45,155 nt of DNA from a virus, in IMG/VR virus record IMGVR_UViG_3300044630_001916, positions 1 to 45,155 of that record. One strand, 5' to 3'. The notes under the pieces are model-generated. The model saw nothing but the letters and a program-made list of their open reading frames with translations. It was not told where the DNA came from and ran no database searches. Position numbers and translations under genes: made by a program. Positions 1 through 43,371 of this stretch are shown here, piece by piece; positions within the stretch are counted from its first letter, which is position 1, and the number at the start of each line of letters is the position of its first letter.

Positions 1-1892
1 ATACTGTCTGATTTTGGACCACCAGGTCCTATTACAAGACCACCATCTGCATAGTTTCTACCAAGATTTGATGCACTTGCACCACTTGCTGATGATGAGC
101 TTCCACCACTTTCACCTGCAAATTCAGTCTTTTTAATATTTTTGATTTGAATTGCAGTTGTAATACCTAAAGCTAAAGCGTTTGCGGTCTTTACAATCCA
201 ATCAAATGGTGACGGTAAAGTAGATGGTTGTGTCAATATTTGTATAACACCCGAAGCTGCTGACATTAATGCGGTTGCGACTTGAAGTTTCTTTCTTTGT
301 TCAAACGCCTTTTTACTTGTCTTAGCCTCTTCATCATATCCTGCAGCTAAAGCACCTGTAATTGCGGCAAATGAGTTGATTGTTGCTGATGCAACTTCAC
401 CATATGCTGCAATTTCTTGTCTTTTTAAATTCCTTTTATCCTTTTGATATTTATTTTCAATTTCTAATAGTAATTCAGCATTACCTTTTGCAAGTAACTT
501 TTCCTTTTCGTAAGCCTTAGTTAATATCTCTCGTTGATTACGGAAATATTCCTGAGTATTTCTATTTAAAATTTGTCCTCTTAATTCTAATAATTTTAAT
601 TGGTCATCTAATGTTTTTGCATCTTTTTCTAATTGTTTCTTTCTTGCGTCTTCTTCAATCTTTTCTTTATCCATTAGATATTTCTTATCTAATGCAAGTA
701 ATGCTTTGTTCTTCTCCTCCTCACTTGCTTTGGATTGTTCTATAGTCTTTTTCTGTCTATCAAAGTTTATCTTTAATAGTTCTTCAGCTTTCTTCTTTTC
801 GTCTTTTATTAGTTCAACCGTTAGGTCTTCAGCTAATTTGATTAATTCTTTATTCGCGTCTTCTCTCTCTTTTGTTTCTTGCTTTCTTCTTTCATCATCA
901 ATCTGTTGAACTTTTAGATTGTATAGTTTTTTTGCTTGTGCAATTAATTCACCTTTTCTTTTCTCAGTAATTAATAATGCGTTGATTGCTTTCTCTTCTG
1001 CTGCAAGTTCTTGTCTAAGTTTGATTTTATTTCCCTCATCCTGACTTTTAGCGGACAATACTTCAAACTCATTTTGTGCATCTAAAAGTTTTTGGTCTGC
1101 TGTCTTATTATCTTCAGCAACCTTCTTTCTATGTTCTTCTTGTTGTTGTCTCCTTTTTTCTAATGCGGCCTTTTCTTGCTCTTGTCTCTTTGCTAATTCC
1201 TCTTTCTCTTTTGCAGTTAGTTCTTTTGTACCACTTACAAAGTTCTTTTGTGCTTCATCGTATCTTTTACCGAAACCAGTTACTGCATCACCTGCGTCTT
1301 GCCAAGCACCTGCAAAATCTCCTGTAATGAATTTTGCAACTGCTCTACCCAATAACCCAATACCTTGAAGTACTGATGATAACGCGGAATATACAACACT
1401 AAACGCCTCTGATACTAATGGTAACGCTTTTACTGCTAAGTCAACTAATATATTGAAAACAGGTTCAATTGCTCTAAATACACCCTGTAAAATTTTCTGT
1501 AATCCTTGGAATAATGGTTCTAACTTTTTACCTGCTTCTTCTGATTGTGCAAATGCAGCAGCAAGACCAGCAACCAAAGACACAATTAAACCAATACCTG
1601 TAGCTTTAAGTGCCGCTCCCCAAGACTTTGTTGCAAGTTCTACCGATTTAATACCTCTACCTAACGCACCTAATGGACCTGGTGCAGCTTCAAGTAATCC
1701 TTTTAAGTCTTCACTTGATTGACCAGCACTTTCTAAAGCATCCTCAACATCACGAATTTGATTTTTAATCTTATTCCATTCAGCCGTTCCTGCAGGTACA
1801 TCTCTTAACGCAGCTTTTAAAGCTCTTAAATTTTTTGTACTTTCAACGACATTACCTGTTACGTCTACTTCTATTTCTACTTTCTTAGCCAT
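1..1892 (-). CDS. Tape measure protein, module A (3' end cut by window edge)
   Basis: Tape measure proteins span the tail lumen and set tail length. The reading frame opens at the ATG at 1892 and is still open at the left edge, giving about 630 residues; by comparison with the module B copy (791 aa) roughly 90 C-terminal residues are missing. An N-terminal segment starting MAKKVEIEVDV resembles the B copy. It is followed by a hydrophobic stretch near residues 97-115, a long charged Lys/Glu/Gln-rich coiled-coil region, a second hydrophobic region, and a Gly/Ser-rich tail with NLGRNYADGG that matches NLGRNYEEGG in copy B. The middle differs strongly from copy B. The start overlaps the end of the 51-aa gene by 8 nt. 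Identification rests on architecture, position and the homologous copy. Confidence 0.8.
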   Translation of the reverse strand, partial: MAKKVEIEVDVTGNVVESTKNLRALKAALRDVPAGTAEWNKIKNQIRDVEDALESAGQSSEDLKGLLEAAPGPLGALGRGIKSVELATKSWGAALKATGIGLIVSLVAGLAAAFAQSEEAGKKLEPLFQGLQKILQGVFRAIEPVFNILVDLAVKALPLVSEAFSVVYSALSSVLQGIGLLGRAVAKFITGDFAGAWQDAGDAVTGFGKRYDEAQKNFVSGTKELTAKEKEELAKRQEQEKAALEKRRQQQEEHRKKVAEDNKTADQKLLDAQNEFEVLSAKSQDEGNKIKLRQELAAEEKAINALLITEKRKGELIAQAKKLYNLKVQQIDDERRKQETKEREDANKELIKLAEDLTVELIKDEKKKAEELLKINFDRQKKTIEQSKASEEEKNKALLALDKKYLMDKEKIEEDARKKQLEKDAKTLDDQLKLLELRGQILNRNTQEYFRNQREILTKAYEKEKLLAKGNAELLLEIENKYQKDKRNLKRQEIAAYGEVASATINSFAAITGALAAGYDEEAKTSKKAFEQRKKLQVATALMSAASGVIQILTQPSTLPSPFDWIVKTANALALGITTAIQIKNIKKTEFAGESGGSSSSASGASASNLGRNYADGGLVIGPGGPKSDS

Positions 1893-2040
1893 TTAACAAT
1901 TCGTTTTTTGTCTCTTGGAATAAATCACCCAAAAGTTTTTTATTACCCTTAAGTTTTCCAATCATACCGAAGTTTAATTGAAATTTTTCTAAGGTTTCTT
2001 TCTGTTTCTTAAGTTCTTTTATAATTTGTTTCTTAGTCAT
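1885..2040 (-). CDS. Small protein upstream of tape measure (module A)
   Basis: A 51-residue Lys/Glu-rich, probably helical protein. I chose the ATG at 2040 (MTKKQIIKELKK) rather than an upstream ATG at 2103, because the longer version would run into the 158-aa gene and its extra residues look like read-through. Its C-terminal LKGNKKLLGDLF matches LKGNKELLHKSF in the 67-aa gene at the same place in module B, so the two are counterparts. The position directly before the tape measure recalls tail-assembly helper proteins, but nothing in the sequence proves that function. Confidence 0.6.
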   Translation of the reverse strand: MTKKQIIKELKKQKETLEKFQLNFGMIGKLKGNKKLLGDLFQETKNELLNG

Positions 2041-2047
2041 AAGTATT

Positions 2048-2524
2048 TTATAATGAACTGATTGTATATTGTACACAAATAGGGTCAACCGCAAGGTGTC
2101 CAATAAATCTTATTTCAAAGTAATATATTCCATTAACAAATGAAGATAACCCAAACTGTGACGGTGTTATCGTAAATGTATTGGTCCCTGAATATTGTGA
2201 TAAAAATGTTGGTGATTCTGTTATAGTATCAACAACCCTCCAAGGTTTATAGTATAATTGATTTGGAATCATCGCGTGAACTGATAAAATACCCAATTCA
2301 TTTGAATTTCTAATCCAAGGAACAGCATTATTTAATTCCCATCTATAAAAATGTGAGAATGTTATACCTGTAGTTGTAACGGTAGTTGCTGTAAATCCTG
2401 TAACCGTACCATTTACAGTATTTGAATTTATATCTTGAATTAATTCAATATCATATTCAGATACTTCATTATTTGGATAGACAAAATCACGATTTATTAT
2501 TTGTCTTATATATTTTCTACTCAT
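2048..2524 (-). CDS. Tail-tip adhesin base protein, module A (no C-terminal extension)
   Basis: A 158-residue Thr/Gly/Tyr-rich, beta-looking protein starting MSRKYIRQIINRDFVYPNN. It matches the first ~157 residues of the 294-aa protein of module B (MSRKYIPQINNLDFVYPNN), with shared landmarks such as the WRxV segment and a YYFEVRxIG stretch near the end. In module B this domain continues into a Pro-Thr linker and a Cys-containing domain; here it stops after the base domain. It probably forms part of the distal tail or a carrier for an adhesin. The exact role is unknown; the domain-loss comparison is direct. Confidence 0.65.
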   Translation of the reverse strand: MSRKYIRQIINRDFVYPNNEVSEYDIELIQDINSNTVNGTVTGFTATTVTTTGITFSHFYRWELNNAVPWIRNSNELGILSVHAMIPNQLYYKPWRVVDTITESPTFLSQYSGTNTFTITPSQFGLSSFVNGIYYFEIRFIGHLAVDPICVQYTISSL

Positions 2525-2539
2525 ATTATTAAATATGTT

Positions 2540-5407
2540 TTAATCAATTATTTCAACTCTTTTCCAATATCCATTTGGACCATTACTTGACCAACTTACA
2601 CCATAATCTGTTGAAACGTATGGTGTTGTATTATATCTTGCAACTACCATATTTTGACCACTGTTTGAAACCGCAACATCTCTTATATCCGATATTGCTG
2701 TCGCTGTCCAAGTTGAACCATAATTACTTGACACATATACATTTCCACCTCCATATGTTGCTTGATATTGACCATTAGATGACATTGACATTCTTGTCCA
2801 ATCTTGATTACCAACACCTTTAGTCACACCTGTGAAAGTAACACCATAATCATTTGAAAGATATACGTTACTACCATTTGTACCTACAGTTACATATTGT
2901 CCTGTCGATGAAATTGCCGATTCTAAAACTGTACTAATACTTCCACCTGTTAATAATGTGTCTGTCCAAGTCACACCATAATCATTTGAAACTGACACAC
3001 GAACAAAATCTCTTGAAGCTACAACATATTGACCTGTTGAGTTTGTTGCTATATAGAAATAACTACTTGTTGTTCCTGTCAATAATGACCAAGTTGAACC
3101 ATAATTTGATGATTTAAATGTACCACCATTTGATGTTGCATATTGATATTGTCCATCATATGAACAAGTAATGTTATACCAACCTCTACTTCCTGCTCCA
3201 CTAATAATTGTAAATGTATTTCCTGAATCAGATGTTCTATACATAAAACCAGGATTTACAATTGCAGTTTGATATGTTGCACCTGTTGAAGAACATATAT
3301 CAAAAAAGTTTCTATTACCTGCATTTAGATTTTGATACCATCCACCAAAATTATCTAAACTTGTATATATATAACCTGGTGTTCCTGTTGAATCAATATC
3401 ATTAACCGCTAATGCAAATGTTCCTAACGGTAACGGAGTTGGGGTTGGTGTAGGTGTTGGAGTCGGTGTAGGTGTTGGAGTCGGTGTAGGACATTGAATT
3501 AATGTTTGACTTGTTCCACCACTAATACGTACCGCTAAACTACCATCACTATACCAATCATTACCACCATCAAATAAAACTAATGGTATTGTAGGTCCAC
3601 TTATTGTTCCTTGATAATATTGTGCAGGACTTGTTAATGTTGAATTATAAGACCATATATATGTATCTTTTGTAAATATTCCACTACAAGCATTTTGGTA
3701 AATTCCAGCACCTACTCCATTAACAAGATGTGAATATGTTGGAGGAGGTAAAGGTGTAGGAGTCGGAGTTGGTGTTGGAGTTGGGTTAGGGTCAGGACAC
3801 ATAAAGTCATAACCATTTGGATATGTTTTAACCACATCTGCAATAGTTTGACCATTGTATTTATTTAAATCATTACCACCCATAATCATATAATCATTTG
3901 GTAGTACTAAAACTTTATTTACAATGGAACTTGGTGGACTATTATTAAATCCATTATTAATTAACCCCGCACCTGCTTTAACTTCAAATGTACTATCATA
4001 TGTACCATCTGAATTAAACCTTAATACTCTATATGCACTATCGGCACCTGAATCACCGTAATTATCTAATTTACCAGCTGCAACTATTTTTCCATCAGAT
4101 TGGATTCCAATTGTATTACAAGAACCCCATAAACCATCACCGAATGCATAATTCAATATGTTTTGTGTAAATCCTGTATCTTCAGAACCATTTGTATTTA
4201 ATCTATTTAATGATAAACGAACACCCGCAGGTAATCCAGTTCTTATATTTGAACCAACTAATATTTTACCATCAGATTGTATTGCTAATGAATATATTTC
4301 AATTGTTGATACCTGAAAAATAGAACAGTTAAATGTTCCATCCACTGTACCATTTGTGTTTAATCTGTAAATTGAATTTACTCCACCAAATGTACCCATC
4401 TTACCACCAACAATCAATTTACCATCAGCTTGTTGTACAACTGCATACATTACATCAGAACCTGTTCCACCTGTAAATGTTGTATCAATTAAACCATTAG
4501 GATTAATTCTCATAACTCTTTGTGTGTTATAATAACCACTACCAAAACCAGTATTTGTTAATACAACTTTACCATCTGACTGGATACAACCTGAAATTAA
4601 ATCTGATGATGCTATTCCTCCTGGATAAATTGGATATATAAATGTTGAATCAATATTACCCGTGCTTAAATCTACTTTTATAACATCATTTTCAATCGAT
4701 GAACCATTAGGTGCTTCATAAGAACCTAAATAGTTTTTAATAATATAAAGTTTATTATTTGTTCTATCTACTAACATTTTCTTAACGGCACTACCTCTTG
4801 GGGTAAAAACTGGCCCCATATTACCGAAGTTTGATGTTATGATATTACCATTTTTATCAGTTTTAAGAATATCACGATACCCATCATTTGGTGAATATGG
4901 AATATAAAAATCACCACCAAAATATATGTTACCACTACTATCGTAATCAATATCATTTATATTATCTAATTCTACAGTCCAACATAAATCAGGAACAGGT
5001 GTTGGAGTCGGTGTTGGTGGAAGCTGTGATTTTATATCTACATTAAATCTATATTCAAAATCGTAAGCATCGGGTCTTGTTGTTGCAGTAAAAGTTTGAC
5101 TACATACTGTAAAACCCGTACTTACTCCAGTAAATCCTGTTACTATTGTATCTATAATTCCATTATTATCATCTGTATTATCAACAGTATAATCCCTTCT
5201 TGATAAATCAAAAGAATATGTTGTTCCTGTAAAAATAAATCCATAACATATATAAAATGTGTCATTTAAATCCACATATGTTGTATATAAATTTGTTGTA
5301 TCTGTAAAATGTCTATTTCTGTGTTCACCATTTACATATACATCAAAATAAGAACCGCCAAGTGTATCTGTTAATTCATTAAAAGTTACGATTATTGAAC
5401 CTCTCAT
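2540..5407 (-). CDS. Modular tail adhesin: delta-60 propeller, Cys domain and BNR propeller joined by Pro-Thr linkers
   Basis: A 955-residue multi-domain protein. Residues 1 to ~130 (MRGSIIVTFNE...) form an anchoring domain shared with the 504-aa protein of module B. After a short PTPTPTP linker, residues ~140-540 carry delta-60 type repeats (QSDGKxxVxG followed by RxNxNGxxDxTF), expected to fold as a beta-propeller. A second Pro-Thr linker (~540-555) leads to a small domain with cysteines (~556-638). A third, long linker (~639-658) leads to a C-terminal propeller of BNR-type repeats (SNDYGVTWT, SSNYGSTWT). The likely role is a surface-exposed receptor- or glycan-binding protein at the tail tip. 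The module B counterpart lacks everything after the first propeller. Confidence 0.75.
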   Translation of the reverse strand: MRGSIIVTFNELTDTLGGSYFDVYVNGEHRNRHFTDTTNLYTTYVDLNDTFYICYGFIFTGTTYSFDLSRRDYTVDNTDDNNGIIDTIVTGFTGVSTGFTVCSQTFTATTRPDAYDFEYRFNVDIKSQLPPTPTPTPVPDLCWTVELDNINDIDYDSSGNIYFGGDFYIPYSPNDGYRDILKTDKNGNIITSNFGNMGPVFTPRGSAVKKMLVDRTNNKLYIIKNYLGSYEAPNGSSIENDVIKVDLSTGNIDSTFIYPIYPGGIASSDLISGCIQSDGKVVLTNTGFGSGYYNTQRVMRINPNGLIDTTFTGGTGSDVMYAVVQQADGKLIVGGKMGTFGGVNSIYRLNTNGTVDGTFNCSIFQVSTIEIYSLAIQSDGKILVGSNIRTGLPAGVRLSLNRLNTNGSEDTGFTQNILNYAFGDGLWGSCNTIGIQSDGKIVAAGKLDNYGDSGADSAYRVLRFNSDGTYDSTFEVKAGAGLINNGFNNSPPSSIVNKVLVLPNDYMIMGGNDLNKYNGQTIADVVKTYPNGYDFMCPDPNPTPTPTPTPTPLPPPTYSHLVNGVGAGIYQNACSGIFTKDTYIWSYNSTLTSPAQYYQGTISGPTIPLVLFDGGNDWYSDGSLAVRISGGTSQTLIQCPTPTPTPTPTPTPTPTPTPLPLGTFALAVNDIDSTGTPGYIYTSLDNFGGWYQNLNAGNRNFFDICSSTGATYQTAIVNPGFMYRTSDSGNTFTIISGAGSRGWYNITCSYDGQYQYATSNGGTFKSSNYGSTWSLLTGTTSSYFYIATNSTGQYVVASRDFVRVSVSNDYGVTWTDTLLTGGSISTVLESAISSTGQYVTVGTNGSNVYLSNDYGVTFTGVTKGVGNQDWTRMSMSSNGQYQATYGGGNVYVSSNYGSTWTATAISDIRDVAVSNSGQNMVVARYNTTPYVSTDYGVSWSSNGPNGYWKRVEIID
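3432..3490. repeat. Pro-Thr linker repeat DNA in the 955-aa adhesin
   Basis: Short tandem repeat encoding PTPTPTP on the minus strand. An 18-nt unit, ggtgtaggtgttggagtc, occurs twice exactly plus a partial copy. Related tracts occur at about 3750-3792, 4996-5018, 11400-11493, 35780-35898 and 44290-44369, always between protein domains. Confidence 0.85.
3750..3792. repeat. Second Pro-Thr linker repeat in the 955-aa adhesin
   Basis: GT-rich tract coding NPTPTPTPTPTPLPPP on the minus strand, between the delta-60 propeller and the small Cys domain. It is closely related in base sequence to the other linker tracts of the window. Confidence 0.8.
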
Positions 5408-5421
5408 ATATTATAAATAGT

Positions 5422-8400
5422 TTAAGGACACGGAGAACCGCAATCTACTACGGTCCAAGTTGCTAAATCAGCAAATGGATACGCAAATCTTATTGATGAA
5501 CAATCCGCACAATCAGGAATATCTTGATTACCCAAACTACCAAAATATCTATATACTGTTTCTACAGCTGTGTCATATTTAATCCATCCTGTGTCTGTTA
5601 CGTTTATGGTAATACCTGAATGGTAGATTGAGACTGGTGGTGCACCAATTGGTGTTCCAACTGATATACCATAAGTTGAAGCAGTAGTTGTAAAATCCGT
5701 ACAATTTGCCCAAAGATTTATCCCTGTATGTGTTAATGAGTACCAAACAGGAAGAAAGGCGTTAAGAACATCAAGAGGAACATCTAAAACAACATTTGGG
5801 TCATATGTACTTCCTGTTGTATTATATATTTGTTCATTTATTTCATATACTGTAAAAGGTAAAAATACACTTCCACCAAACTGTGCAAATGAACTTGTAA
5901 AACCTGATACATTTCCACCTAACAAACCAACATTATAATCATACCAATTACTAAAATAAAAATATGATTGTAACATATTTGGATTGGTAAATTCTGCTTT
6001 AATATTGTATAAGCTATTAGGTGCTGCACAATAATAATATTGGAAATATCTTACAGGATATGTACTTGGGTTATTATCTATCTGAACTAACTCAACTTTG
6101 GTTAATTCAGGATTACTCATATTAAATTCAATAATCTTATTCCAACTAAAATACTGTTCTTTAATTTTAATAATATCTCTCGGTGATAAATTTTTTATAT
6201 CACTTTGTTTTAACCAAAAATTACCACTTAAAAAACGAGTATTTGGGTCATAAAGATTATTTATTCTATTTTCATAAAATAATTTATATACATCTTGTTC
6301 TGTATATGCATTAATTGCATTATAAGTTTCTACACCAACATCTGTTGGTTCTTCACTGTTAAACAAAATACAAATATTGTCATTTGATATTTTATTACTA
6401 TCAGGATTACCCAACGGCATCGTATTAGAAATGATAGGTACTCTTACAGGACTTAAATAATCAGTCTCGTTACTATTCATTATATAAAAACTATATGTGT
6501 TAGCAGTATAACTTAAAGTATAAGCCTCACCAATTGTATTTAAGAATGGATTTTGATTACCCAAATAGTAAAATAATTTTGGTTTTGTTTTAACACCTTT
6601 ATAAGTCCATTTAACTTTTTCTGTACCACCTGTTGATTCAGTTGAGTTTGCACTAACATAATTAATACCTAATGGTATTGCAACATTATCATCCCACTTC
6701 CTTGTTACCTGTGGTGAGAATATTGTTTCAATTTTCTTTTCTTGTGATTTAAAATCTGTTTGTTTGAAAACAAAATTTTGTCCATATATCCTATTATTTC
6801 TATCTTTGAATTGTTTGTTTCCGTCATCTCCATCTTCCAAATCTGTTAATATCAATTCACTCTCCACATAATTTTGTGCTGGCTCCACACTAAAACCTTG
6901 GTCCCAACTTAACTTATCTGTCCAATCATATATGGAACCTGTTCCAACATAATATTGATATGGTTCAATTATAATTTGATTTGAAACTTCAGGGTCAGGA
7001 ACAAAGATTAAATTAAATTTCTTTGCAATTGATGATAGTAAATCAATTTGTTTTAGTTGTTCATTTATAATTAAATTAAAATCAACATAATCCCCATCCT
7101 CAAAAAATATTGTAGTATTAGGTGGTATTTTATATGAAAATTTAGTTGTGTCACTATTAAAATAACCATACATATACAGACCTTTCATCCAAGGCGTGTT
7201 CATAAAATCAGACTTAATGGTATATCCATATGTCTTGAACATTAATTGAATTAAAGCCCAAACGTTTAATGATGGTTTTAATTGATTGTCTAATATTCCT
7301 CTACTTGGAACATTAATTCTATAATCTTTTACACCCGCAGCATACATTGCTGCTGTTGTGGAATATCCACTAATTGGTGCAGATGTTGTATATAATCTTG
7401 TTTGACCTGAAAGGGTTGAACCACTTAAATTAACTGTATCTCCTGAATATTCATATCCATTATGTGTAATTGGATACATATATGTTCTTGGATTACCACT
7501 ATAACTAAAACCTAATGGATTCCAACTACTTGAAATATTGAATAGGTCAAAATTGTGATTGAACATTAATGCGGGGTCATTAAATGGTAAATCTTTTAAT
7601 AGATTGTTACCAATCTTACCAAACAAATCCCCGATATTGGAAAATAATGTTACATCATATTCAATCTTAGAATTTTGAATATTGATTTTATTTAGTTTTA
7701 AATAGCCGTTAAAATAAACTTCATCGTTAATTAAAACTGATGCTGGTGTTCTAAGTAATGGATTGAAATATAATGTGTCAACATCCACATCAAAGAAACT
7801 TTCAAAAAACGCATTATTGGTTTTTGAACCAGGTAATTGTAATCCTATTGAATAATCTGAGTTACGTTTCCCAATATCTTGTAATTCTGCAAATGATTTA
7901 TTTATTTTAATTGGAATGTCTGTATATAAATCTAAAATTTCTGTCTCATAAACAGTAGTATCAGAAGCGTTAGATGTTATATATAAAGAATTGATAGCAA
8001 CTCCTGTTATTTGAGCATAAATTTCAACTATATCACCTTGCAAAACAGGAAATTCACCTGTTATTGTTGGATTTTTACTTGAAGTTGTTCTCACAATAGG
8101 AGAAAGAGTTTCACCATTTCTTATTACAGAAACTTCTGCTATTTTAATTGGTGTTGATGAATAATTACCTGTGCAACTATAAGTAACAATCCCATTATTA
8201 TTAGTCACTAAAAATCCTGCACCCGCTAAAGTTGTACCCGTGTTAGTGCCAACATATGGATTATCTGTTGTACCTGAACCCGTTATGTACATTATATATG
8301 TTCCACCAGTTAATACTTCTAATGATGCGTCAGGAATATTAAATGTATCTAATGGTTTGTTTGTTTGTACTCTAAGTACTGTCTGTTGTTGTTGGGCCAT
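5422..8400 (-). CDS. Tail hub/baseplate-like structural protein, module A
   Basis: A 992-residue protein beginning MAQQQQTVLRVQTN. A variable N-terminal region (~15-150) is followed by a conserved core that starts with LDLYTDIPIKINKSFAELQD and a LQLPGSK motif, a pattern I associate with large distal-tail proteins of Bacteroidota phages. The C-terminus (CADCSSIRFAYPFADL...) is also nearly the same as in the 1118-aa module B copy. It lies between the 526-aa tail protein and the adhesin genes, so it probably forms the tail hub or baseplate that carries adhesins. The name rests on context and my memory of the family; no catalytic motif is visible. It ends 14 nt before the downstream adhesin gene. 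Confidence 0.6.
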   Translation of the reverse strand: MAQQQQTVLRVQTNKPLDTFNIPDASLEVLTGGTYIMYITGSGTTDNPYVGTNTGTTLAGAGFLVTNNNGIVTYSCTGNYSSTPIKIAEVSVIRNGETLSPIVRTTSSKNPTITGEFPVLQGDIVEIYAQITGVAINSLYITSNASDTTVYETEILDLYTDIPIKINKSFAELQDIGKRNSDYSIGLQLPGSKTNNAFFESFFDVDVDTLYFNPLLRTPASVLINDEVYFNGYLKLNKINIQNSKIEYDVTLFSNIGDLFGKIGNNLLKDLPFNDPALMFNHNFDLFNISSSWNPLGFSYSGNPRTYMYPITHNGYEYSGDTVNLSGSTLSGQTRLYTTSAPISGYSTTAAMYAAGVKDYRINVPSRGILDNQLKPSLNVWALIQLMFKTYGYTIKSDFMNTPWMKGLYMYGYFNSDTTKFSYKIPPNTTIFFEDGDYVDFNLIINEQLKQIDLLSSIAKKFNLIFVPDPEVSNQIIIEPYQYYVGTGSIYDWTDKLSWDQGFSVEPAQNYVESELILTDLEDGDDGNKQFKDRNNRIYGQNFVFKQTDFKSQEKKIETIFSPQVTRKWDDNVAIPLGINYVSANSTESTGGTEKVKWTYKGVKTKPKLFYYLGNQNPFLNTIGEAYTLSYTANTYSFYIMNSNETDYLSPVRVPIISNTMPLGNPDSNKISNDNICILFNSEEPTDVGVETYNAINAYTEQDVYKLFYENRINNLYDPNTRFLSGNFWLKQSDIKNLSPRDIIKIKEQYFSWNKIIEFNMSNPELTKVELVQIDNNPSTYPVRYFQYYYCAAPNSLYNIKAEFTNPNMLQSYFYFSNWYDYNVGLLGGNVSGFTSSFAQFGGSVFLPFTVYEINEQIYNTTGSTYDPNVVLDVPLDVLNAFLPVWYSLTHTGINLWANCTDFTTTASTYGISVGTPIGAPPVSIYHSGITINVTDTGWIKYDTAVETVYRYFGSLGNQDIPDCADCSSIRFAYPFADLATWTVVDCGSPCP

Positions 8401-8401
8401 A

Positions 8402-9982
8402 TTAGAAACCTTTGTTTACAAAGAAGCCATCGGCATACTTACAAGTTATTCTATACTTGTTTAGTTTTTTATGTTTTGTGTTTATGGTTTCAACTTCTGT
8501 TGAAAGAATTTGTATTGGTCTTAAATCTTTATATACTTTATCCTGTCTATCAAGTGGTGAAATAAAATCTTCTTTTATTTCATAAACCTGAGGTGAGTAG
8601 AACAATTGTTCCAACCAATTACCCATAGGTTCACTTAGAAAATCACTTTCCAAAACAAATTCCCTTTGAACATCAGTATCAAAAGTTTTAACTGTTCTAC
8701 CGACATTTCTGTCAGGAGAAGAAAGACTGGTAGCATAATATCTATTGTCATAAGTCTCTCTTTTTATTTTCTTTATATCTTGTCTATATTTCGTGAATGT
8801 ATAATAATCATATCCGCCACGGTTATTTAAAAACCCAAGTCTTGTATCTTCAGGTCCACAATTATCATATAAATAAAAGTAGAACGCTTCTGATACAGGT
8901 CCAACTGGTCCTGCTGTTGTTCTTCCTGAAAAATTTGTTGGCCATCCATAAAATAATTGAACGCGATAATATGAAACACCCGACCAAGGAATTGTTGCAA
9001 ATAAATTATCAATATCTTTAGGTCCACACGGTAAAGCAAATATTTTTAATGTATCTGTATTACCTGTTGGTGATTCATAAGTTGTACCTGAGAAATTTAA
9101 TATTTGTTCAAAGTAGGTTCCTGCCACTTGGTTATTACTATCATCAAAAAATTCAAAGACCGCCCAATCTGCTTCAATTACTTGTCTATCCCCTGTTTGT
9201 CCGTTTAAATAATATAATACATAATTTTCCTTTGATTGTATATATTGGATACGTGGTGAATCAGTCAAAAATCTTGATGTTTCACTCATCTCTGGCAGTG
9301 TTGGATAATCAAACAAATACTGTGACATTGGTGACAATCGTCTGTTAATATCTATAGTATTAATTGTTAAACCTGTTCCTACAACTGTTCCTAACTCTTG
9401 GTCAAAATTGGATAAGAAATATTTCTCATCACCCATTTGTAATGTACCACCTACGTAATTAAAATAATTTCCTGTGTTTGTAAAACCACTTGCAGTAAAT
9501 CCTGTTGATGTTATACAATTTGGTATATCGGTATAATGATTATAGTCTGTATATCCTGTTGCACCTGTATATTGTACTCCACTAAAATATTGATACTTGT
9601 ATTTAAAATTAACTTTTAAAATATTTGGATATGGATTATTCCAATTGATTGATTCGGTTGTTGTGTACCAATCATTCAACCAATAATATTGGTAATGTTC
9701 AGATTTAATATAGTTGGACATATAATCATATGGTCTCACATTAAATCTATAAGTGTAGGTTGAACCTGATTGTGTTATATTATATGGTACAACGGACATT
9801 AATCCTACTTTTCTATCTTCTGAATATAATTCTACACTCAGTTCCATACTTGGTTGATAAGATGTACCAGTCAATACAACTTCGTAAGTTCCACCTCTTT
9901 GGTAAACCATATCTGTGGACCTTCTTAATTGGGTATTACTATTTAACCCATTACTGTATAATGTTTGATAACCGAAACTCAT
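8402..9982 (-). CDS. Tail-tip structural protein, module A
   Basis: A 526-residue Tyr/Asn/Thr-rich, beta-looking protein with no motif I recognise. I placed the start at MSFGYQTLYSNGLNS (9982): an ATG five codons upstream exists, but the module B copy begins at the equivalent MSFGY and both then follow the preceding stop with the same spacing. The two copies stay similar along their whole length, including LRRSTDMVYQRGG near the start, LPCGPKDI in the middle and DKVYKDLRPIQILSTEVETI near the end. The stop is 1 nt before the 992-aa gene, so translation is probably coupled. It is probably part of the distal tail complex. Confidence 0.6.
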   Translation of the reverse strand: MSFGYQTLYSNGLNSNTQLRRSTDMVYQRGGTYEVVLTGTSYQPSMELSVELYSEDRKVGLMSVVPYNITQSGSTYTYRFNVRPYDYMSNYIKSEHYQYYWLNDWYTTTESINWNNPYPNILKVNFKYKYQYFSGVQYTGATGYTDYNHYTDIPNCITSTGFTASGFTNTGNYFNYVGGTLQMGDEKYFLSNFDQELGTVVGTGLTINTIDINRRLSPMSQYLFDYPTLPEMSETSRFLTDSPRIQYIQSKENYVLYYLNGQTGDRQVIEADWAVFEFFDDSNNQVAGTYFEQILNFSGTTYESPTGNTDTLKIFALPCGPKDIDNLFATIPWSGVSYYRVQLFYGWPTNFSGRTTAGPVGPVSEAFYFYLYDNCGPEDTRLGFLNNRGGYDYYTFTKYRQDIKKIKRETYDNRYYATSLSSPDRNVGRTVKTFDTDVQREFVLESDFLSEPMGNWLEQLFYSPQVYEIKEDFISPLDRQDKVYKDLRPIQILSTEVETINTKHKKLNKYRITCKYADGFFVNKGF

Positions 9983-9983
9983 A

Positions 9984-10472
9984 TTATATACCTTCAATTA
10001 AATCTACTAATTCTTCAAAAGCCGCTTCCCCAATTGCGTCAACAATTCTTTGGTCTTGTGCCAAATCTTCTATTGCAACATCAAGGAAATTTGCTGGTCT
10101 TATTCCGAATTTTTTTATGTTTGTTTGTATTGCAAAAGCAAAGCTTCTACGTTTTATATATCTACCCTTCTTGTCTCTTCCCTGTAATCCTCTACTCTTA
10201 ATCCAATCTTCAATTGCTGAAATTGGAACACCTTTCTTACCAGGTAATCTTCCTGATTGTACAAATTGAAAGTAATCCTCAGCAAGAACTTGAATGGTGG
10301 GTTTGTCTGTGTTATTATTTTTAACAACAACACTAATACTATCTCTCAACTTACCACTAGCTACTTTATTACCTATACCCCTTTTCTTGGCAAATCCAAA
10401 TGGATACCTTTTCTGTTCAAGAACTTTTTGTAATTCTGTTTGTAGTATAGGCGCTATTGCTTCTAAATCCAT
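9984..10472 (-). CDS. HK97 gp10-like connector/tail completion protein, module A
   Basis: A 162-residue basic protein. The layout GKLRDSI, then a VLAEDYFQFVQSGRLPGKKG segment, then AIEDWIKSRG, FAFAIQTNIKKFGIRP and NFLDVA is the typical pattern of HK97 gp10-like head-tail connector or minor tail proteins. The module B copy (161 aa) shares this pattern almost throughout. It sits between the 85-aa protein and the large tail-tip proteins. The family call is from recognised motif order, not a database search. Placement among tail-tip genes instead of head genes is unusual for the family. Confidence 0.6.
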   Translation of the reverse strand: MDLEAIAPILQTELQKVLEQKRYPFGFAKKRGIGNKVASGKLRDSISVVVKNNNTDKPTIQVLAEDYFQFVQSGRLPGKKGVPISAIEDWIKSRGLQGRDKKGRYIKRRSFAFAIQTNIKKFGIRPANFLDVAIEDLAQDQRIVDAIGEAAFEELVDLIEGI

Positions 10473-10474
10473 AA

Positions 10475-10732
10475 TTAATTGGTTGTACCACTAATTGGGT
10501 TATAATCATTCCATTCATCACTGTCAAGAATAATTAACATCTGTTCTTTATTATAAATAGTTGATTTTGTTGTTAAATCGGAAATGAATGATGGTTCATC
10601 CCCAATCCATTTAACAAATGTTTTTGTTCCATCTGTTGAGTATCTTAATGTTTCTAAAGATGTTTCCAATACTTGATTAAAGTCTATTAAATTTAACTCA
10701 GAAACATTAAAAAATATATATTTAATATCCAT
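10475..10732 (-). CDS. Conserved 85-aa protein, module A
   Basis: Small acidic protein of unknown function (MDIKYIFFNVSELNLIDFNQ...). The module B copy at 43372-43629 is about 90 percent identical by eye, one of the best conserved pairs in the two modules. Its start overlaps the end of the LamG adhesin gene by 11 nt, and its stop is 2 nt before the gp10-like gene, so it is embedded in the tail operon. Mixed Ile/Thr/Trp content suggests a compact fold. No signal peptide or membrane segment is visible. Confidence 0.6.
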   Translation of the reverse strand: MDIKYIFFNVSELNLIDFNQVLETSLETLRYSTDGTKTFVKWIGDEPSFISDLTTKSTIYNKEQMLIILDSDEWNDYNPISGTTN

Positions 10733-11540
10733 ATGTTGATTTTTGTGCGTCGTAGTTATTTAATATTTCTGTGTCAGATAGTGCTCTATTATACATATTG
10801 AATGTTGAGATATTTCCTGAGTAAAGTAATGGTAAACCAGATGTAAATCTTCCCATTCTCCAACCAGCGGTTGAACTTCTTAAAGTTGTTCTTGTTGTAG
10901 TTGTTGTTTTTACTAAAGAACCATTCACGTATAATTTTAAACTTGAACCACTTGTCCAAACACCATATACTTGAATCCAAGTATTATGTGTAAATGTATT
11001 TGGATTATCAGCAGTAACTTCAGCACCATCCACAACAGCTGCCGCTCTTAAAATATTTGTTGTCTTTTTGTTAATCATAAGAGACCATCCACTTCCTGAA
11101 CCATCTTCACCTCTTAAGAAACATATTTGTTCTGTTGCACCTGTCGTTGGTGCAATCCATCCACCGAATGTATAATTTCCTGTATTACTTCCCGCAGTTC
11201 CTGCAACAAATGTTGCATAATCATTTGTACCATCAAAATCAAAATAGTCAGGTGTTCCACTAACAAATGTTGGACTATTAACTAATGTTGCGTCATAATC
11301 ATTGGCCGTTAAATCAAACCAAGTACTTCCTGTGCCAGGATATGATGCACTATCATTAGCGTCCACATTAATGGTTAGACCACTTGTTGTAAATGGAATT
11401 GGTGTTGGACTCGGTGTAGGAGTTGGTGTTGGTGTTGCAGTCGGAGTTGGTGTTGCGGTTGATGTAGGCGTAGGAGTAGGTGTGGGAGTTGGTCCCACAC
11501 TTTCTACAATATTTTGAAATGCAAAGGGTGCAAAATTCAT
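10722..11540 (-). CDS. LamG-domain adhesin with Pro-Thr linker, module A
   Basis: A 272-residue protein in three parts: a 16-residue N-terminal anchor (MNFAPFAFQNIVESVG), a Pro-Thr(-Ala/Ser) linker at residues ~17-47, and a concanavalin-A-like LamG (laminin G type 3) domain. LamG landmarks are STWFDLTANDYDATLVNSPT, FDGTNDYATF, a YTFGGWI strand, LKLYVNGSLV and the terminal YNRALSDTEILNNY. Such domains bind carbohydrate, so this is a plausible receptor-binding protein. Anchor and first LamG strands are almost identical to the module B copy, while the domain core differs, as expected if the binding surface is under selection. It overlaps the fibre gene by 1 nt. Confidence 0.75.
   Translation of the reverse strand: MNFAPFAFQNIVESVGPTPTPTPTPTSTATPTPTATPTPTPTPSPTPIPFTTSGLTINVDANDSASYPGTGSTWFDLTANDYDATLVNSPTFVSGTPDYFDFDGTNDYATFVAGTAGSNTGNYTFGGWIAPTTGATEQICFLRGEDGSGSGWSLMINKKTTNILRAAAVVDGAEVTADNPNTFTHNTWIQVYGVWTSGSSLKLYVNGSLVKTTTTTRTTLRSSTAGWRMGRFTSGLPLLYSGNISTFNMYNRALSDTEILNNYDAQKSTYGY
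11400..11493. repeat. Pro-Thr linker repeat DNA in the LamG adhesin A
   Basis: GT-rich tract coding PTPTPTPTSTATPTPTATP on the minus strand. It is about 18 nt longer than the matching tract of module B (44290-44369), a length change typical of slippage or unequal crossing-over. Exact identity between the modules begins at its right end, at 11463. Confidence 0.8.
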
Positions 11541-12279
11541 TATACTAAATTCTTAACATTTGCAAGGTATAGGTCTGTATTATCAAACGATACCAAGGTT
11601 ATTACGTCAACACTTGTTGTTGTAGTTGGAACATATGGTGAACCACTTACTTGTTTAACAGATGCAGGGAAAGATACTGTTGCACTTCCTGTTGTGTTAA
11701 GTTTAATATTAATAGTTTGTCCTGCTGCAATTGATGTAGGTTCTATTCTTGTATCTGTTCCTTCCACCAATTGAAGTGTGAAGAAATTACCCTTACTTAA
11801 ATCAAGTGATGCGGTATTTGATGCAATTGTTAATGTACTAACGTTTCCTTTAACAGAACCTGTTGCTACAATTGAACCTGATACCGTTAATCCATTGGAT
11901 ACTAATAATGAACCAGTTACTTGTGTATTATATCCAATTTGTAATGGTGCTCCACCATTATCTTTATGGAATATTCTACTATCTGCTTGTGTACCTAATT
12001 CAAACTTACTATCAAATATAGAACCTGATGGATAAGATGTTGAACCTAATAATATACTACCAAAACCACCTGCGTGTCCACTATGTGAACCAATAAAGAT
12101 GTTATTAGAACCAGAGATAAAGTCATCACCTGCACCTTGAATAATTACGTTATTTGAACCTGTTGAGAATGGTGTAAAGAAACCATTCAATATCATATTC
12201 TTTTCAGAACTTCCAAAGAATCCGTTGTCCACACCTGCTACGTTACCAATAACGGTATTGTAGTTAGAACTATTTCTAT
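11463..12279. repeat. Long direct repeat, internal copy
   Basis: These 817 bases recur at 44339-45155 (offset 32,876). I found no difference on reading both, and translations in more than one frame agree. The first mismatch to the left is at 11462 (a) against 44338 (g). The right end of the identity is unknown because the window stops there. Confidence 0.9.
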
Positions 12280-17179: not shown

Positions 17180-18511
17180 TTATCCAACAAATGCAATGGA
17201 ATATCTTCCTGTTGCTTTCATACTTTTTATTTCAGGTAACATTCTCATCATTAGACAATCTGAAAGGTCAGGTGATTTACCCAATACTCTTTTCATTTCA
17301 TCCTTTGATTGAACTGCAACCTTATTATCTTTATCTATGTCTTTTAATTTAACTGCTAGTAACTCTTGTGTCAAGTCATCAATTAAAGTTGATTCAAGTA
17401 GATTTATACTAATCTTTCCCTCCCTAAACAAATCAGATAACTTAACATAACATTGGGATTTTAGATTAGAAAAGTTCTGTCCGTGTAATGGTGATGAATT
17501 GTTAATAAAGTTTGTTGCTCTAATTTGGTCTGCAACTCCACCTCCAACGCCATCACTATCCACAACACATTGATTGGGATGGATTCCGTGTGACCTCATT
17601 AGGTCCTGAATTTGGGACGATAATTCAACGGTTGATAGTTTCCTATACACGTGACATTCTACGACAACCAGACCCACCCAAATCATTACTACGGACCTGT
17701 CATCACCAAACCTTGCTACGTCTATTGTCATATACTTCTTATCCTGTGTATTTGGAATTGATTTAAATATGGATGCAGATATTTCATCAAACTTGAATAG
17801 ACTATCTGACTCATCCAAATAATCCCAATCACCTTCTAACAATCTTCTTCTTTGTTGTGGAGGTAACTCCTTTAACATTTCAATATAGGATTGTGGTAAA
17901 TGTGGATTATCCATTGGAAGAGAAGGGATGAACACCTTGTTCTCTTCTAACTTTCCTTGTATGTGTGGTAAATAAAAATCTTTCTTAATCCAATTGTTAG
18001 ATGGGTTACAGGTCATCAATAGTTTTGGTATAAGATTATATTCATTTAGTTTATATCTTATACGAGACTTAACTATGTTGTAAGCCAATGATGTTACCTG
18101 TGCGGCTTCATCAATAAACCCTGCGGTAATTTCTAACGAACCTAAACTATCGTAGTTTGGGTCTGATGGATTGTATTGTAAATCTTTGAATATAATCTCT
18201 GATTTGTTATAGAATGTAAGAACGTTTGACTGACCATTGTAATTGAAATGTTCACCACTCTTAAATCCCATAGTACTGAGTAAATCAAATAACGTATTGA
18301 GTGTGGTTAATCTAAGTTGTGTTAATACTGCACGACCAATTAAAAATCTAATACCTTTATATTGTAAACATAATGTCACAGCCCACAGTGCTCCAACCCA
18401 ACTCTTACCTCCACCAGCAGACCCACCAAATAATACAACGTTAGTCTTATTGTCTGTTAGATAACGCCAAGCTTCTGATTGTCTTTTGGTTGGATTAATT
18501 GTTATTTCCAT
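17180..18511 (-). CDS. terL: Terminase large subunit (packaging ATPase-nuclease)
   Basis: A 443-residue packaging motor. The ATPase half shows Walker A GGSAGGGKS at residues 29-37, Walker B with FIDEA at 132-136, and the coupling motif TCNPS at 167-171. The RNase H-like nuclease half shows the first acidic motif IDVARFGDD at ~263-271, a second at VVDSDGVGGG (~316-325) and a third at DLSD (~415-418). Length and motif order are normal for the family, so the enzyme looks intact. The gene overlaps the end of the DNA methyltransferase gene by 17 nt, indicating one transcript with the small terminase upstream. Confidence 0.95.
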   Translation of the reverse strand: MEITINPTKRQSEAWRYLTDNKTNVVLFGGSAGGGKSWVGALWAVTLCLQYKGIRFLIGRAVLTQLRLTTLNTLFDLLSTMGFKSGEHFNYNGQSNVLTFYNKSEIIFKDLQYNPSDPNYDSLGSLEITAGFIDEAAQVTSLAYNIVKSRIRYKLNEYNLIPKLLMTCNPSNNWIKKDFYLPHIQGKLEENKVFIPSLPMDNPHLPQSYIEMLKELPPQQRRRLLEGDWDYLDESDSLFKFDEISASIFKSIPNTQDKKYMTIDVARFGDDRSVVMIWVGLVVVECHVYRKLSTVELSSQIQDLMRSHGIHPNQCVVDSDGVGGGVADQIRATNFINNSSPLHGQNFSNLKSQCYVKLSDLFREGKISINLLESTLIDDLTQELLAVKLKDIDKDNKVAVQSKDEMKRVLGKSPDLSDCLMMRMLPEIKSMKATGRYSIAFVG

Positions 18512-19517
18512 ATTCGTTTTCTATTCTTGATTGTGCTATCTTTAGATATTCTTCTTCCTTTTCAATTCCTATAAAGTCAAATCTACCTCTGATTGCTGCT
18601 TTACCTGTTGAACCACTACCCATAAAAGGTTCAAGTACGGTACCACCTTTTGGTGTTACAAGTTTGATTAGGTATAACATTAGTTCAGTTGGTTTAACTG
18701 TTGGGTGATTGTTCATATCACCTCTATCCTTTTTATTTATTTTAGGGTGATAGAAGAATTTACTCCAAGGTTCTTCACTTTCATCAAAGATTATGTTTGC
18801 TGGCCATCTACCTGTATTGTTTGGTTCCCAATCTTCTAATCTTCCTTTATCTAATTCAACTCCCCATCCTGTTAAATCGTTACCTTGATTAATAACTTTT
18901 AAACTTGGTTTATCATCCTTATATTCAATTCTACAATCATCAATGTTTAATCCACCAGTTCCCCATTTTAATATGTTCTCTTTGTTATTCTTTTCACTTA
19001 ATGGTTTTCTTGCCATAACAATCGGTTCGTGTGCTGGTTTAAGTGCTGTACCTATACCATTACCTAAGTTTAAAGATTTAGGGAACCCTGAACCAAATAT
19101 CCACATCAATTGGTCTCTTATTTCAAATCCCGCATCTTCTAATCCACTAGTCATTCTATGATAAGTTCTTGGTGCTGAAAATGATAGTAGATAACCACCA
19201 GGTTTTAATACTCTTAAACATTCACGTCCCCATTCTTCACACCATTCTTGAAACCATCTACCTTCTTTTGCTCCACCAATTGCTAATCCTGGTTGAACAC
19301 CTTTACTAAATCCACCATTTGCTGGTGACTTACCCTGTTCAAATCTTTCTTGTGAACGTATCTTTTCTCTCTCAATAAGTTCTCTGTGTTTAGATGGATT
19401 ATCCCATTCCTTATTCATAAATCCAATCCCATAAGGTGGGTCTGTTACAACGCTGTCAACACTATTATCAGGTAACTCCTTCAATTTTTCTAAACAATCT
19501 CCTAAAATTAATCTCAT
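18495..19517 (-). CDS. Orphan DNA adenine/cytosine-N4 methyltransferase (beta-class layout)
   Basis: A 340-residue SAM-dependent DNA methyltransferase. The catalytic motif DPPY is at residues 26-29 and the SAM-binding FMGSGSTG at ~298-305, with the catalytic motif first, as in beta-class enzymes. DPPY is most often N6-adenine, though N4-cytosine cannot be excluded. NHPTVKPTELM before the SAM motif is also typical. No restriction endonuclease lies beside it, so it is an orphan enzyme, perhaps protecting phage DNA from host restriction or marking packaged DNA. It sits between the two terminase genes and overlaps the large subunit. Confidence 0.9.
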   Translation of the reverse strand: MRLILGDCLEKLKELPDNSVDSVVTDPPYGIGFMNKEWDNPSKHRELIEREKIRSQERFEQGKSPANGGFSKGVQPGLAIGGAKEGRWFQEWCEEWGRECLRVLKPGGYLLSFSAPRTYHRMTSGLEDAGFEIRDQLMWIFGSGFPKSLNLGNGIGTALKPAHEPIVMARKPLSEKNNKENILKWGTGGLNIDDCRIEYKDDKPSLKVINQGNDLTGWGVELDKGRLEDWEPNNTGRWPANIIFDESEEPWSKFFYHPKINKKDRGDMNNHPTVKPTELMLYLIKLVTPKGGTVLEPFMGSGSTGKAAIRGRFDFIGIEKEEEYLKIAQSRIENEYGNNN

Positions 19518-24625: not shown

Positions 24626-24940
24626 ATGGCAACAACAACAAAGAAAATTTTAAATCTACAAGACAAGGTTGAAATACTTTTAATCAAATATCCATCTCTT
24701 AGAGATTGTGATAAATTATTGTCCTCTAAGATGTGGGATATCGAGTTAAGAAAATTAAACCTTAATCCAAAGACAACCCCAACCGAAATATTTTTTTCTT
24801 TATATCAGAAAGGTTCATTATCCAACGCAGAACTTATTGGTAGGGCAAGACGTAAACTTCAAAAAGAAAAGGAAGAACTACGTGGTGAAACTTGGTATGA
24901 TAGACATACTGAAGCTGAACATACAAGAAGAACAATATAA
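24626..24940 (+). CDS. Putative regulatory protein, single rightward gene
   Basis: A 104-residue basic, helical protein: NLQDKVEILLIKYPSLRDCD, then KLLSSKMWDIELRKL, a FFSLYQKGSLSNAELIGRAR segment and RRKLQKEKEELRGETW near the end. The pattern of YPxxRDxDKLL...SxxxxxRARRKLQ...LRG resembles a family of small phage proteins I have met without a settled function; the SNAELIGRARRKLQ part could be the recognition helix of an HTH. It has its own promoter and a shared bidirectional terminator, and faces the 70-aa gene across the control region. Confidence 0.65.
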   Translation: MATTTKKILNLQDKVEILLIKYPSLRDCDKLLSSKMWDIELRKLNLNPKTTPTEIFFSLYQKGSLSNAELIGRARRKLQKEKEELRGETWYDRHTEAEHTRRTI

Positions 24941-24973
24941 AAAAAGGGTTCCACGTGGAACCCATTTTTATTT
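24941..24973. terminator. Bidirectional terminator between converging genes
   Basis: An 18-nt perfect palindrome, GGGTTCCACGTGGAACCC (24946-24963), flanked by A5 on the left and ATTTTTATTT on the right. It serves the rightward 104-aa gene and the leftward 152-aa gene that converge here. Confidence 0.85.
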
Positions 24974-24991
24974 GTGTTTGGTACGTTTAGT

Positions 24992-35264: not shown

Positions 35265-35268
35265 AGCT

Positions 35269-35472
35269 TTACAGGTTTAAACTTTCAACCATTTCATTTA
35301 TAAAAGATTTATGTAATAATTCCTTATTACCTTTTAATGTAGATATTGAACTAAAATCCAATTTGGTATTTGAAAATTGTTCTTTAATATCTTGTGTCTT
35401 TTTGTTAAAGTCTGTTTGTGATATATTCTTTATATCAAGTTTTTCGTTATCTAAATAAATTTCTATATTCAT
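35269..35472 (-). CDS. Small protein upstream of tape measure (module B)
   Basis: A 67-residue protein (MNIEIYLDNEKLDIKNISQT...), the counterpart of the 51-aa gene of module A. The two share the C-terminal LKGNKELLHKSF / LKGNKKLLGDLF but differ at the N-terminus, where this copy is longer and strand-like. Its place before the tape measure is conserved in both modules, suggesting a role in tail assembly, though no motif confirms it. Confidence 0.55.
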   Translation of the reverse strand: MNIEIYLDNEKLDIKNISQTDFNKKTQDIKEQFSNTKLDFSSISTLKGNKELLHKSFINEMVESLNL

Positions 35473-35488
35473 ATTTTTAATATTTTAA

Positions 35489-36373
35489 TTACAATGGGAT
35501 ACAACTTCCTCCTGAACAAACATAGATTCCAAGTATCTCACCAGTACCATCAATATCCGCAATTCTGAATGGACCTGTGTCTGTATCTGTACTTACGTTT
35601 GAATATGCTAAATATCCACTTTGACCTGAGTAACCATATATAAAGTCACCGATTGTTAATGACGCATAAGCCTCACTTGATGTATCTACAGTTTGTATTA
35701 AATAATTTGTTTCACCACAATAATCTGCACAAGTAGCTCTAATTGCTCCGTGTGTGTATATTGAGAAACCTGTTGGTGTAGGACTTGGTGTTGGAGTTAT
35801 AGTTGGACCACCAGGCGTTGGAGTTGGTGTAGATGTGGGTGTTGGTGTAGGTGTAGAAGTCGGTGTAGGTGTTGGTGTTGGAGTTGGAGTTGGCGTTGGT
35901 ACAATAATTGATAATGTAACACATATTGGATATACACATTTTTTTCCAATCATTCTAACTTCAAAGTAATATGTACCATCTGTAAAACCAGTAAGTCCCA
36001 AATCAGATGGTAATGCTGTAAAATTTTCATTAATTGTTATATATGTGTTTGTCAGACCTGTTGATGTTATGTTATGAACTAATCTCCAAGGTCTAAAATA
36101 AGATTGACTTGGACCCATCATATGAATAGACGCTACACTCAAAAATCCACCATCAATATCAACGTAAGGTTGAGCATTATTTAATGACCAATCTCCCTGT
36201 ATATTAAAGGTAATTCCCGTTGAAGATATTGTTGTAGCACTGAAAACTGTCACATTTCCTGATACACAATTGTCATTAATATTGTGTATTATCTCCAAAT
36301 CATATTCTGCAGTAAAATTATTTGGATAAACAAAATCCAAATTATTTATCTGTGGTATATATTTTCTACTCAT
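35489..36373 (-). CDS. Tail-tip adhesin with Pro-Thr linker and Cys-rich C-terminal domain, module B
   Basis: A 294-residue protein. Residues 1 to ~157 match the complete 158-aa protein of module A. A long Pro-Thr(-Ser/Gly) linker follows (~160-198), then a C-terminal domain of ~95 residues with Cys pairs (ATCADYCGETNYLIQ, YVCSGGSCIPL). That domain resembles in layout the small Cys domain inside the module A 955-aa adhesin (short Cys-flanked beta unit after a Pro-Thr linker). It is probably an exposed binding domain. The comparison with module A shows that linker and head were added or lost as a unit. Confidence 0.7.
   Translation of the reverse strand: MSRKYIPQINNLDFVYPNNFTAEYDLEIIHNINDNCVSGNVTVFSATTISSTGITFNIQGDWSLNNAQPYVDIDGGFLSVASIHMMGPSQSYFRPWRLVHNITSTGLTNTYITINENFTALPSDLGLTGFTDGTYYFEVRMIGKKCVYPICVTLSIIVPTPTPTPTPTPTPTSTPTPTPTSTPTPTPGGPTITPTPSPTPTGFSIYTHGAIRATCADYCGETNYLIQTVDTSSEAYASLTIGDFIYGYSGQSGYLAYSNVSTDTDTGPFRIADIDGTGEILGIYVCSGGSCIPL
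35780..35898. repeat. Longest Pro-Thr linker repeat (294-aa adhesin)
   Basis: About 119 nt of GT-rich tandem repeat coding PTPTPTPTPTPTPTSTPTP and similar on the minus strand. It is the same repeat type as the tracts at 3432, 3750, 4996, 11400 and 44290. On the plus strand it gives a Val-Gly frame that is not a gene. Confidence 0.85.
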
Positions 36374-36406
36374 ATTATTAAATATAAATTAATTTTAAAT
36401 CAATTA

Positions 36407-37921: not shown

Positions 37922-37946
37922 ATATATGTATATATTTTAATTATTT

Positions 37947-41303: not shown

Positions 41304-41304
41304 A

Positions 41305-42882: not shown

Positions 42883-42883
42883 A

Positions 42884-43369: not shown

Positions 43370-43371
43370 AA

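Follow-up and report, generated by a model that had tools for sequence, protein, structure and literature searches.

Small C-terminal head domains on non-homologous carrier proteins, and breaks of homology at Pro-Thr linkers, in the tail module of an uncultivated phage group

Introduction

Mosaicism of phage receptor proteins is an already known kind of phenomenon. Exchange of the gp37/gp38 adhesins of T-even phages was reportedly described by Tetart in 1998 and by Trojet in 2011, and promiscuous Ig-like domains on virion proteins are said to have been described by Fraser in 2007. Both observations are cited in PMC3797505, the adhesin exchange also in PMC12529663; domain mosaicism of phage receptor-binding proteins is treated by Smug et al. 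2023 (PMC10684548), and modular Ig-like adhesins of gut phages in PMC13370021. We focus here on the tail genes of IMG/VR virus record IMGVR_UViG_3300044630_001916, taken whole (45,155 bp; hereafter the window), and of its relatives, in which carrier proteins of three named types, g992, MRGS and MSRKYI, bear small C-terminal domains (heads), many of them behind Pro-Thr linkers. We consider it very probable that this record is a wrap-around assembly of mixed strains holding two alleles, A and B, of one tail locus, and that fixed carriers have their heads replaced by recombination with other phages. Among the open-licence papers listed in a literature search, none deals with this phage group or treats Pro-Thr linkers as sites of exchange.

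The pattern resembles that of T-even gp37/gp38, where C-terminal adhesin segments are replaced by recombination at conserved repeated motifs; here, 14 of 21 ends of homology between related genomes lie inside linkers, against 1.7 expected. In T-even phages, on the other hand, one locus swaps its own variants, whereas here heads cross between non-homologous carriers and exchange is not confined to homologous copies of one locus; the spacers are Gly-rich there and Pro-Thr here. The study of Smug et al. describes fragments at least 50% identical in otherwise different tail proteins (PMC10684548), and such fragments are found here for head families F1, F2, F3, F4, F7, F10 and F14, at 52-93% identity in otherwise dissimilar proteins. 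That study concerns another phage group and other head families; the junctions are resolved here in the DNA, and the word 'linker' is absent from the main text of that paper. The conserved N-terminal base and variable C-terminal segment of mosaic receptor-binding proteins are seen here in MSRKYI. Like the Ig-like domains, the heads are small surface domains spread across unrelated structural proteins; unlike them, they are short, often contain Cys and have no Pfam assignment, an Ig/FnIII-like look being limited to the MSRKYI carrier. Finally, there is a likeness to the crAss-like muzzle protein (PF25731; described in PMC10172136), in that proteins matching PF25731 in two loci, L144 and L145, end in an F1 head, with the difference that this carrier is unrelated and has no Pro-Thr linker.

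Heads shared between carriers

Scans of IMG/VR with the conserved 531-aa protein of the window's tail module (8402-9997, minus strand) and with an alignment of the MSRKYI domain returned 57 and 62 loci, respectively, and extra scans with F1 and F3 returned 24 and 20. Linker-bearing proteins number 152, in 81 loci (L003-L123 and the window). Open reading frames (ORFs) identical to or contained in others, and post-linker segments longer than 200 aa or shorter than 35 aa, were dropped before the counts; once redundancy was removed, 170 segments no longer than 200 aa remained, which clustered into 18 families plus 22 singletons, the latter unused as families. F6 (low complexity) and F16 (both members in one protein) were left out, and F0 was split by motif into the MRGS domains and F0b. 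Profiles of 15 head families were searched against all ORFs, and 13 families were compared all against all with hhalign.

Eight of the 15 head families occur on at least two of the named carriers, and ten do so when unclassified carriers are counted. F1 is carried by MSRKYI (14 proteins), MRGS (3), g992 (2), a fused g992+MRGS protein (1) and unclassified proteins (4); F3 by MSRKYI (7), g992 (2), MRGS (1) and a fused protein (1); F4 by MSRKYI (5), g992 (3) and others (2); F7 by MSRKYI (3) and g992 (2); and F10, the head of the window's 294-aa MSRKYI protein, by MSRKYI (2), MRGS (1) and a fused protein (1). F2 ends 23 g992 proteins, in none of which a linker precedes it, and 20 MSRKYI proteins, in all of which one does. 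F11 and F14 also cross between carriers, F12 and F17 cross to unclassified carriers only, and F5, F8, F9, F13 and F15 keep to a single carrier class. The best protein identity across carriers reaches 93% for F7, between the distant genomes of L028 and L100, 88% for F4, 87% for F1, 85% for F3, 68% for F2, 52% for both F10 and F14 and 36% for F11, and F12 is 95% identical to a copy on an unclassified carrier; the median is 32-50% for F1, F2 and F10.

Seventeen complete MSRKYI proteins have neither a linker nor a head family. Of 62 modules, 21 have F2 on g992 alone, 15 on MSRKYI alone, one on both carriers and 25 on neither (Fisher P 0.005); we make no claim of exclusivity because it is not significant in independent pairs on the tree. 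In many relatives (L016, L018, L021, L024, L038, L039, L054 and others) g992 and the MRGS domain behind it form one fused protein, so that a single gene corresponds to two in the window. Neither the 531-aa and 294-aa proteins nor heads F1 and F3 had a match in the phages collection, and a scan of genome contigs with g992 gave 274 candidate stretches and no relative.

Junctions and linkers

Two pairs of close relatives let the junctions be read in the DNA. Between L089 and L112, which share 95% identity over the g992 core and the surroundings of MSRKYI, F3 and its linker differ in position: they end the MRGS gene in the former and the g992 gene in the latter. The DNA of this unit is 84% identical over 423 bp, starting within the linker and reaching the stop, and the g992 tract common to both ends at base 1573 of L112, one base ahead of its linker. 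L028 and L029 are 95.6% identical up to the g992 linker and differ by two heads, F7 and F12, lying between linkers. Ten cross-carrier head pairs were compared as DNA, and in eight (F7, F4 twice, F12, F3 three times, and F1 in L077/L113) the homology tract starts inside the upstream linker and ends near the stop (about 70 bp beyond it in one case), at the end of the domain, or in or at the next linker. F1 in L095/L016 lies in a shared tract of 1.9 kb without an upstream linker, and the DNA match of F10 between the window and L010 covers part of the head only.

Breakpoints were also counted over the tail loci at large. From 98 loci we drew 22 disjoint pairs at 80-98% identity; of their 78 homology breakpoints, 21 lie in linkers of the query genome (7.5% expected per breakpoint). 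The break counts quoted throughout come from the 12 pairs at 85% identity or more that have a counted breakpoint, and their expectations are simple length fractions, with breakpoints of one pair not independent. In these, 14 of 21 homology ends lie in a linker (1.7 expected) and 11 of the 21 in a linker of both genomes, while 11 of 15 restarts of homology coincide with a gene boundary (0.4 expected). After the 14 breaks in linkers, there is no detectable similarity in nine, partial similarity of 31-36% in three, an insertion of two heads in one and nothing to compare in one.

Thr and Pro codon usage in linkers (3,669 and 3,068 codons) equals the background, with codon homozygosities of 0.404 versus 0.427 for Thr and 0.445 versus 0.457 for Pro; the similarity of linker DNA is thus a product of peptide sequence and codon bias. 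F1 also follows Thr-only linkers (Thr runs with AAP instead of Pro-Thr) in L134 and L137, and stands without a linker at the end of proteins in L144 and L145 (records of 63-66 kb). Of the features of a diversity-generating retroelement or an invertase cassette, self-blastn of the window on both strands (E up to 1e-5, more than 40 columns, shorter repeats lying outside the test) found no inverted repeats flanking heads, and a Pfam scan of 20 window proteins, small ORFs left out, found no reverse transcriptase or invertase, with a weak HTH_7 match (E 0.009) below the cut-off. The linkers look like flexible tethers, primarily, that tolerate replacement of what follows, and their DNA might also have a part in recombination.

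Two alleles in a wrap-around assembly

The window contains two modules with parallel gene order, A (3-11540) and B (32889-44416), and all genes under discussion lie on the minus strand. The shared order in A/B is a putative tape-measure gene, MSRKYI, MRGS, g992, and genes for proteins of 531/525 aa, 162/161 aa and 85 aa and a LamG-type protein; the larger aligned blocks are 77-84% identical (self-blastn). A stretch of 817 bp, 11463-12279, recurs without any difference at 44339-45155, where the contig ends on the right; the offset is 32,876. The 531-aa gene is present once in 42 and twice in two of the first 44 records (the window and 43 relatives), and in 13 further records it is present once in ten, twice in one and split over the contig ends in two (G046 and G049), a sign of circular permutation; with the split ones included, 54 of the 57 records have a single copy. 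The three records with two copies measure 45,155, 47,553 and 57,002 bp, the distance between copies being 32.9, 32.4 and 32.5 kb, respectively, and the longest record with a single copy measures 35,283 bp.

Because of the end repeat, the spacing of the copies by one genome length and the single copy in near-complete relatives, we infer that A and B most likely represent alleles of a single tail locus rather than a duplication. The window itself is most likely a contig put together from mixed strains that runs past one full turn of a circularly permuted genome of about 32.9 kb. The candidate of two modules within one genome was rejected on the wrap-around repeat, the copy counts and the genome-length spacing. 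The other over-length records, of 57,002 bp (G016, L060-L062) and 47,553 bp (L106/L120), likewise have two diverged copies one genome length apart and could be mistaken for genomes with duplicated modules; in the former the copies are 70-94% identical where aligned, and its ends lack an exact repeat. As a caution, an apparent pair of 'modules' on a viral contig of excess length can be strain alleles.

The domain layout given in a preliminary description of this DNA largely stands, with its two tail modules and six Pro-Thr linkers. MSRKYI is bare in module A (158 aa, 2048-2524) and in B carries a linker (35765-35908) and the Cys-containing head F10 (aa 202-291, 35501-35770) in a protein of 294 aa (35489-36373). 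The MRGS protein of module A (955 aa, 2540-5407) contains the MRGS domain, linkers, a DUF5122 (delta-60) propeller (Pfam, E 2e-23), a Cys segment (aa 554-639, 3491-3748) and a propeller-like C-terminus, for which the BNR domain formerly named is seen as a weak BNR_6 match (E 0.007) under the Pfam cut-off; its counterpart in B (504 aa, 36407-37921) has DUF5122 alone (E 2e-57). Three of the six linkers lie in the 955-aa protein, among them 3438-3490, a tandem repeat of period 18/6, and one each in the 294-aa protein and the two LamG proteins. The linker DNA had been called repetitive and similar in all six places, and several of the tracts are indeed alike, at 80-87% over 50-63 bp (blastn). The Cys domain, too, had been said to sit on different carriers. 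As one and the same domain, the two Cys domains of the window were rejected, the segment of the 955-aa protein and the F10 profile aligning with an hhalign probability of 0.15%, and a profile search with that segment matched nothing in the set except itself; the claim holds by another example, F10 being 52% identical to the head that terminates an MRGS protein of L010. Both g992 proteins, of 992 aa in A (5422-8400) and 1118 aa in B (37947-41303), end in F2, at 5428-5625 (aa 926-991) and 37953-38150, respectively.

Tempo and source of exchange

A tree built on the g992 core, with 61 rows (L069 left out), gives a measure of how long heads persist. The MSRKYI base has ten head states on it, the bare one included, besides unassigned ones, and its terminal head changed at least 27 times, against a mean of 40 with shuffled labels. 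The same head is shared by all six pairs at g992-core distances below 0.1, by six of 11 at 0.1-0.25 and by 154 of 1311 beyond 1.0. Since sharing falls with distance, heads are passed on by descent over short spans and replaced over long ones, and since all six close pairs kept the same head, exchange is not fast. Six same-family pairs within one genome, one of them within one protein, are 20-39% identical, and two more same-record pairs (88% and 53%) are alleles of wrap-around records. Such low identity points to other phages as the source, and head exchange appears, from these sequences, to run between phages and not inside one genome.

We thus propose that g992, MRGS and MSRKYI would be three fixed bases in this phage group, on which small C-terminal heads, mostly Pro-Thr-linked, would be replaced over evolutionary time as these phages recombine with others; the stretch exchanged would typically extend from the linker to the stop codon or the next linker. 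Heads could land on non-homologous carriers too, because every carrier accepts a linker and an independently folded head. The exchangeable unit in this uncultivated phage group would then be the head with its linker, not the gene, and it is not bound to one base, as the junctions in the DNA illustrate.

Competing explanations

The preliminary description had placed the shuffling inside one genome that holds both modules, with the repetitive linker DNA as a recombination hinge. Much of what it expected is found: the same heads recur on different, unrelated carriers across genomes, homology breaks in linkers, cassettes running from linker to linker exist, and the linker tracts are repetitive and mutually similar. 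Yet the records with two copies are wrap-around contigs, head copies of one family within a genome are only 20-39% identical, linker codons follow the background, F1 also stands behind Thr-only linkers or none, and F2 on g992 is never preceded by a linker. A dedicated DNA hinge is thus unproven, and we regard internal shuffling through it as very improbable. It is quite possible, although we hesitate to call it probable, that in the replacement of heads from other phages recombination, illegitimate or homologous, can strike at any point and chimeras persist only when joined at domain boundaries, which would put the visible breaks at flexible linkers and gene ends, the linkers not being recombination sites. 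The restarts at gene boundaries, where there are no linker repeats, the linkerless F2 on g992 and F1 on muzzle-type proteins, and codon use without a sign of constraint at the DNA level are all consistent with this; the inclusion of part of the upstream linker in eight of ten cross-carrier tracts speaks for homology-assisted exchange instead, though generic similarity would give it too. Selection for functional domain boundaries accounts equally well for the break positions. That the heads are ancient paralogues, distributed by differential loss and not by exchange, would suit the age of several families, as the median cross-carrier identities of F1, F2 and F10 suggest, but the 93% identity of F7 between carriers of distant genomes and the limitation of DNA homology to head and linker make it highly unlikely.

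Replacement of heads on fixed carriers by recombination with other phages, the reading we favour, has several points against it as well. The closest pairs all kept their head, and the low identity of copies within a genome dates no transfer. Binomial P values come out too small, since the breakpoints of one pair depend on each other; of the 21 homology ends, six fall inside domains, and the two LamG genes of the window differ in the linker by an 18-bp repeat indel only, their divergence beginning in the lectin domain. It is formally possible that a single genome truly carries both modules, and the adhesin function discussed below is argued from gene context and a CBM_56 match below threshold. 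More tentatively, Bacteroidota-type phages could share a portable pool of heads, in which DNA cassettes of part of a low-complexity linker and a head, up to the stop codon or the next linker, cross between non-homologous carriers and between lineages as far apart as this group and phages with crAss-type muzzles, the linkers serving as degenerate homology arms, so that one phage takes another's head on a different base; we think this extension somewhat doubtful.

Structure and possible function of the heads

For the MSRKYI domain an Ig/FnIII-like sandwich, a common arrangement, is predicted (Foldseek/VIA; Z up to 8.6 with residues 35-159 aligned). The predicted structure of g992 has a mean pLDDT of 52, and the F10 head is of low confidence within the model of the 294-aa protein. 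In profile searches of the PDB, no E value fell below 0.02 for g992, 0.8 for F1 or 0.1 for F3. Head F3 weakly resembles CBM_56: of its 11 members, eight match at E up to 1, with 5e-4 as the lowest value, and the similarity stays below the Pfam cut-off (19.2 bits versus 27 for the whole L161 protein). The F1-bearing proteins of L144 (2503-6228) and L145 (2425-6228) match the crassvirus muzzle PF25731 at 42.3 and 41.2 bits against a cut-off of 27, and the F1 head in L144 lacks the usual cysteines. According to PMC10172136, muzzle-type proteins form the tail end in phicrAss001. An adhesin role at the tail end is favoured because LamG and propeller domains occur in the cluster and a head is shared with muzzle-type proteins; judged by sequence, the heads are likely adhesins located at the tail tip, where their job would be to bind host-surface glycans or proteins. 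If heads bind receptors, host range would be predictable from heads rather than from whole tail genes.

Other features of the window

The putative tape-measure genes, so named from position and composition, lie at 3-1892 in module A, where the gene is cut by the contig start, and at 32889-35264 in module B, and gave no Pfam match. The LamG-type proteins have 272 aa in allele A (10722-11540; Laminin_G_3, E 2e-18; Pro-Thr linker near 11393-11489) and 265 aa in allele B (43619-44416), with a linker shorter by 18 bp. In an ungapped comparison this linker had seemed a crossover point of the window, which was rejected, since gapped alignment gives the 18-bp indel with about 98% identity continuing past it; the difference is such as repeat slippage would give. 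The only inverted repeat found by the self-blastn lies away from the heads, at 24932-24975 in the single-copy core; it is self-complementary, 87% identical over 46 aligned columns, and is possibly a terminator. A gene for an N6/N4 DNA methylase (E 7e-38) at 18495-19517 adjoins that of the terminase, and the latter is closest, in the phages collection, to the terminase of Flavobacterium phage 11b, at 44%.

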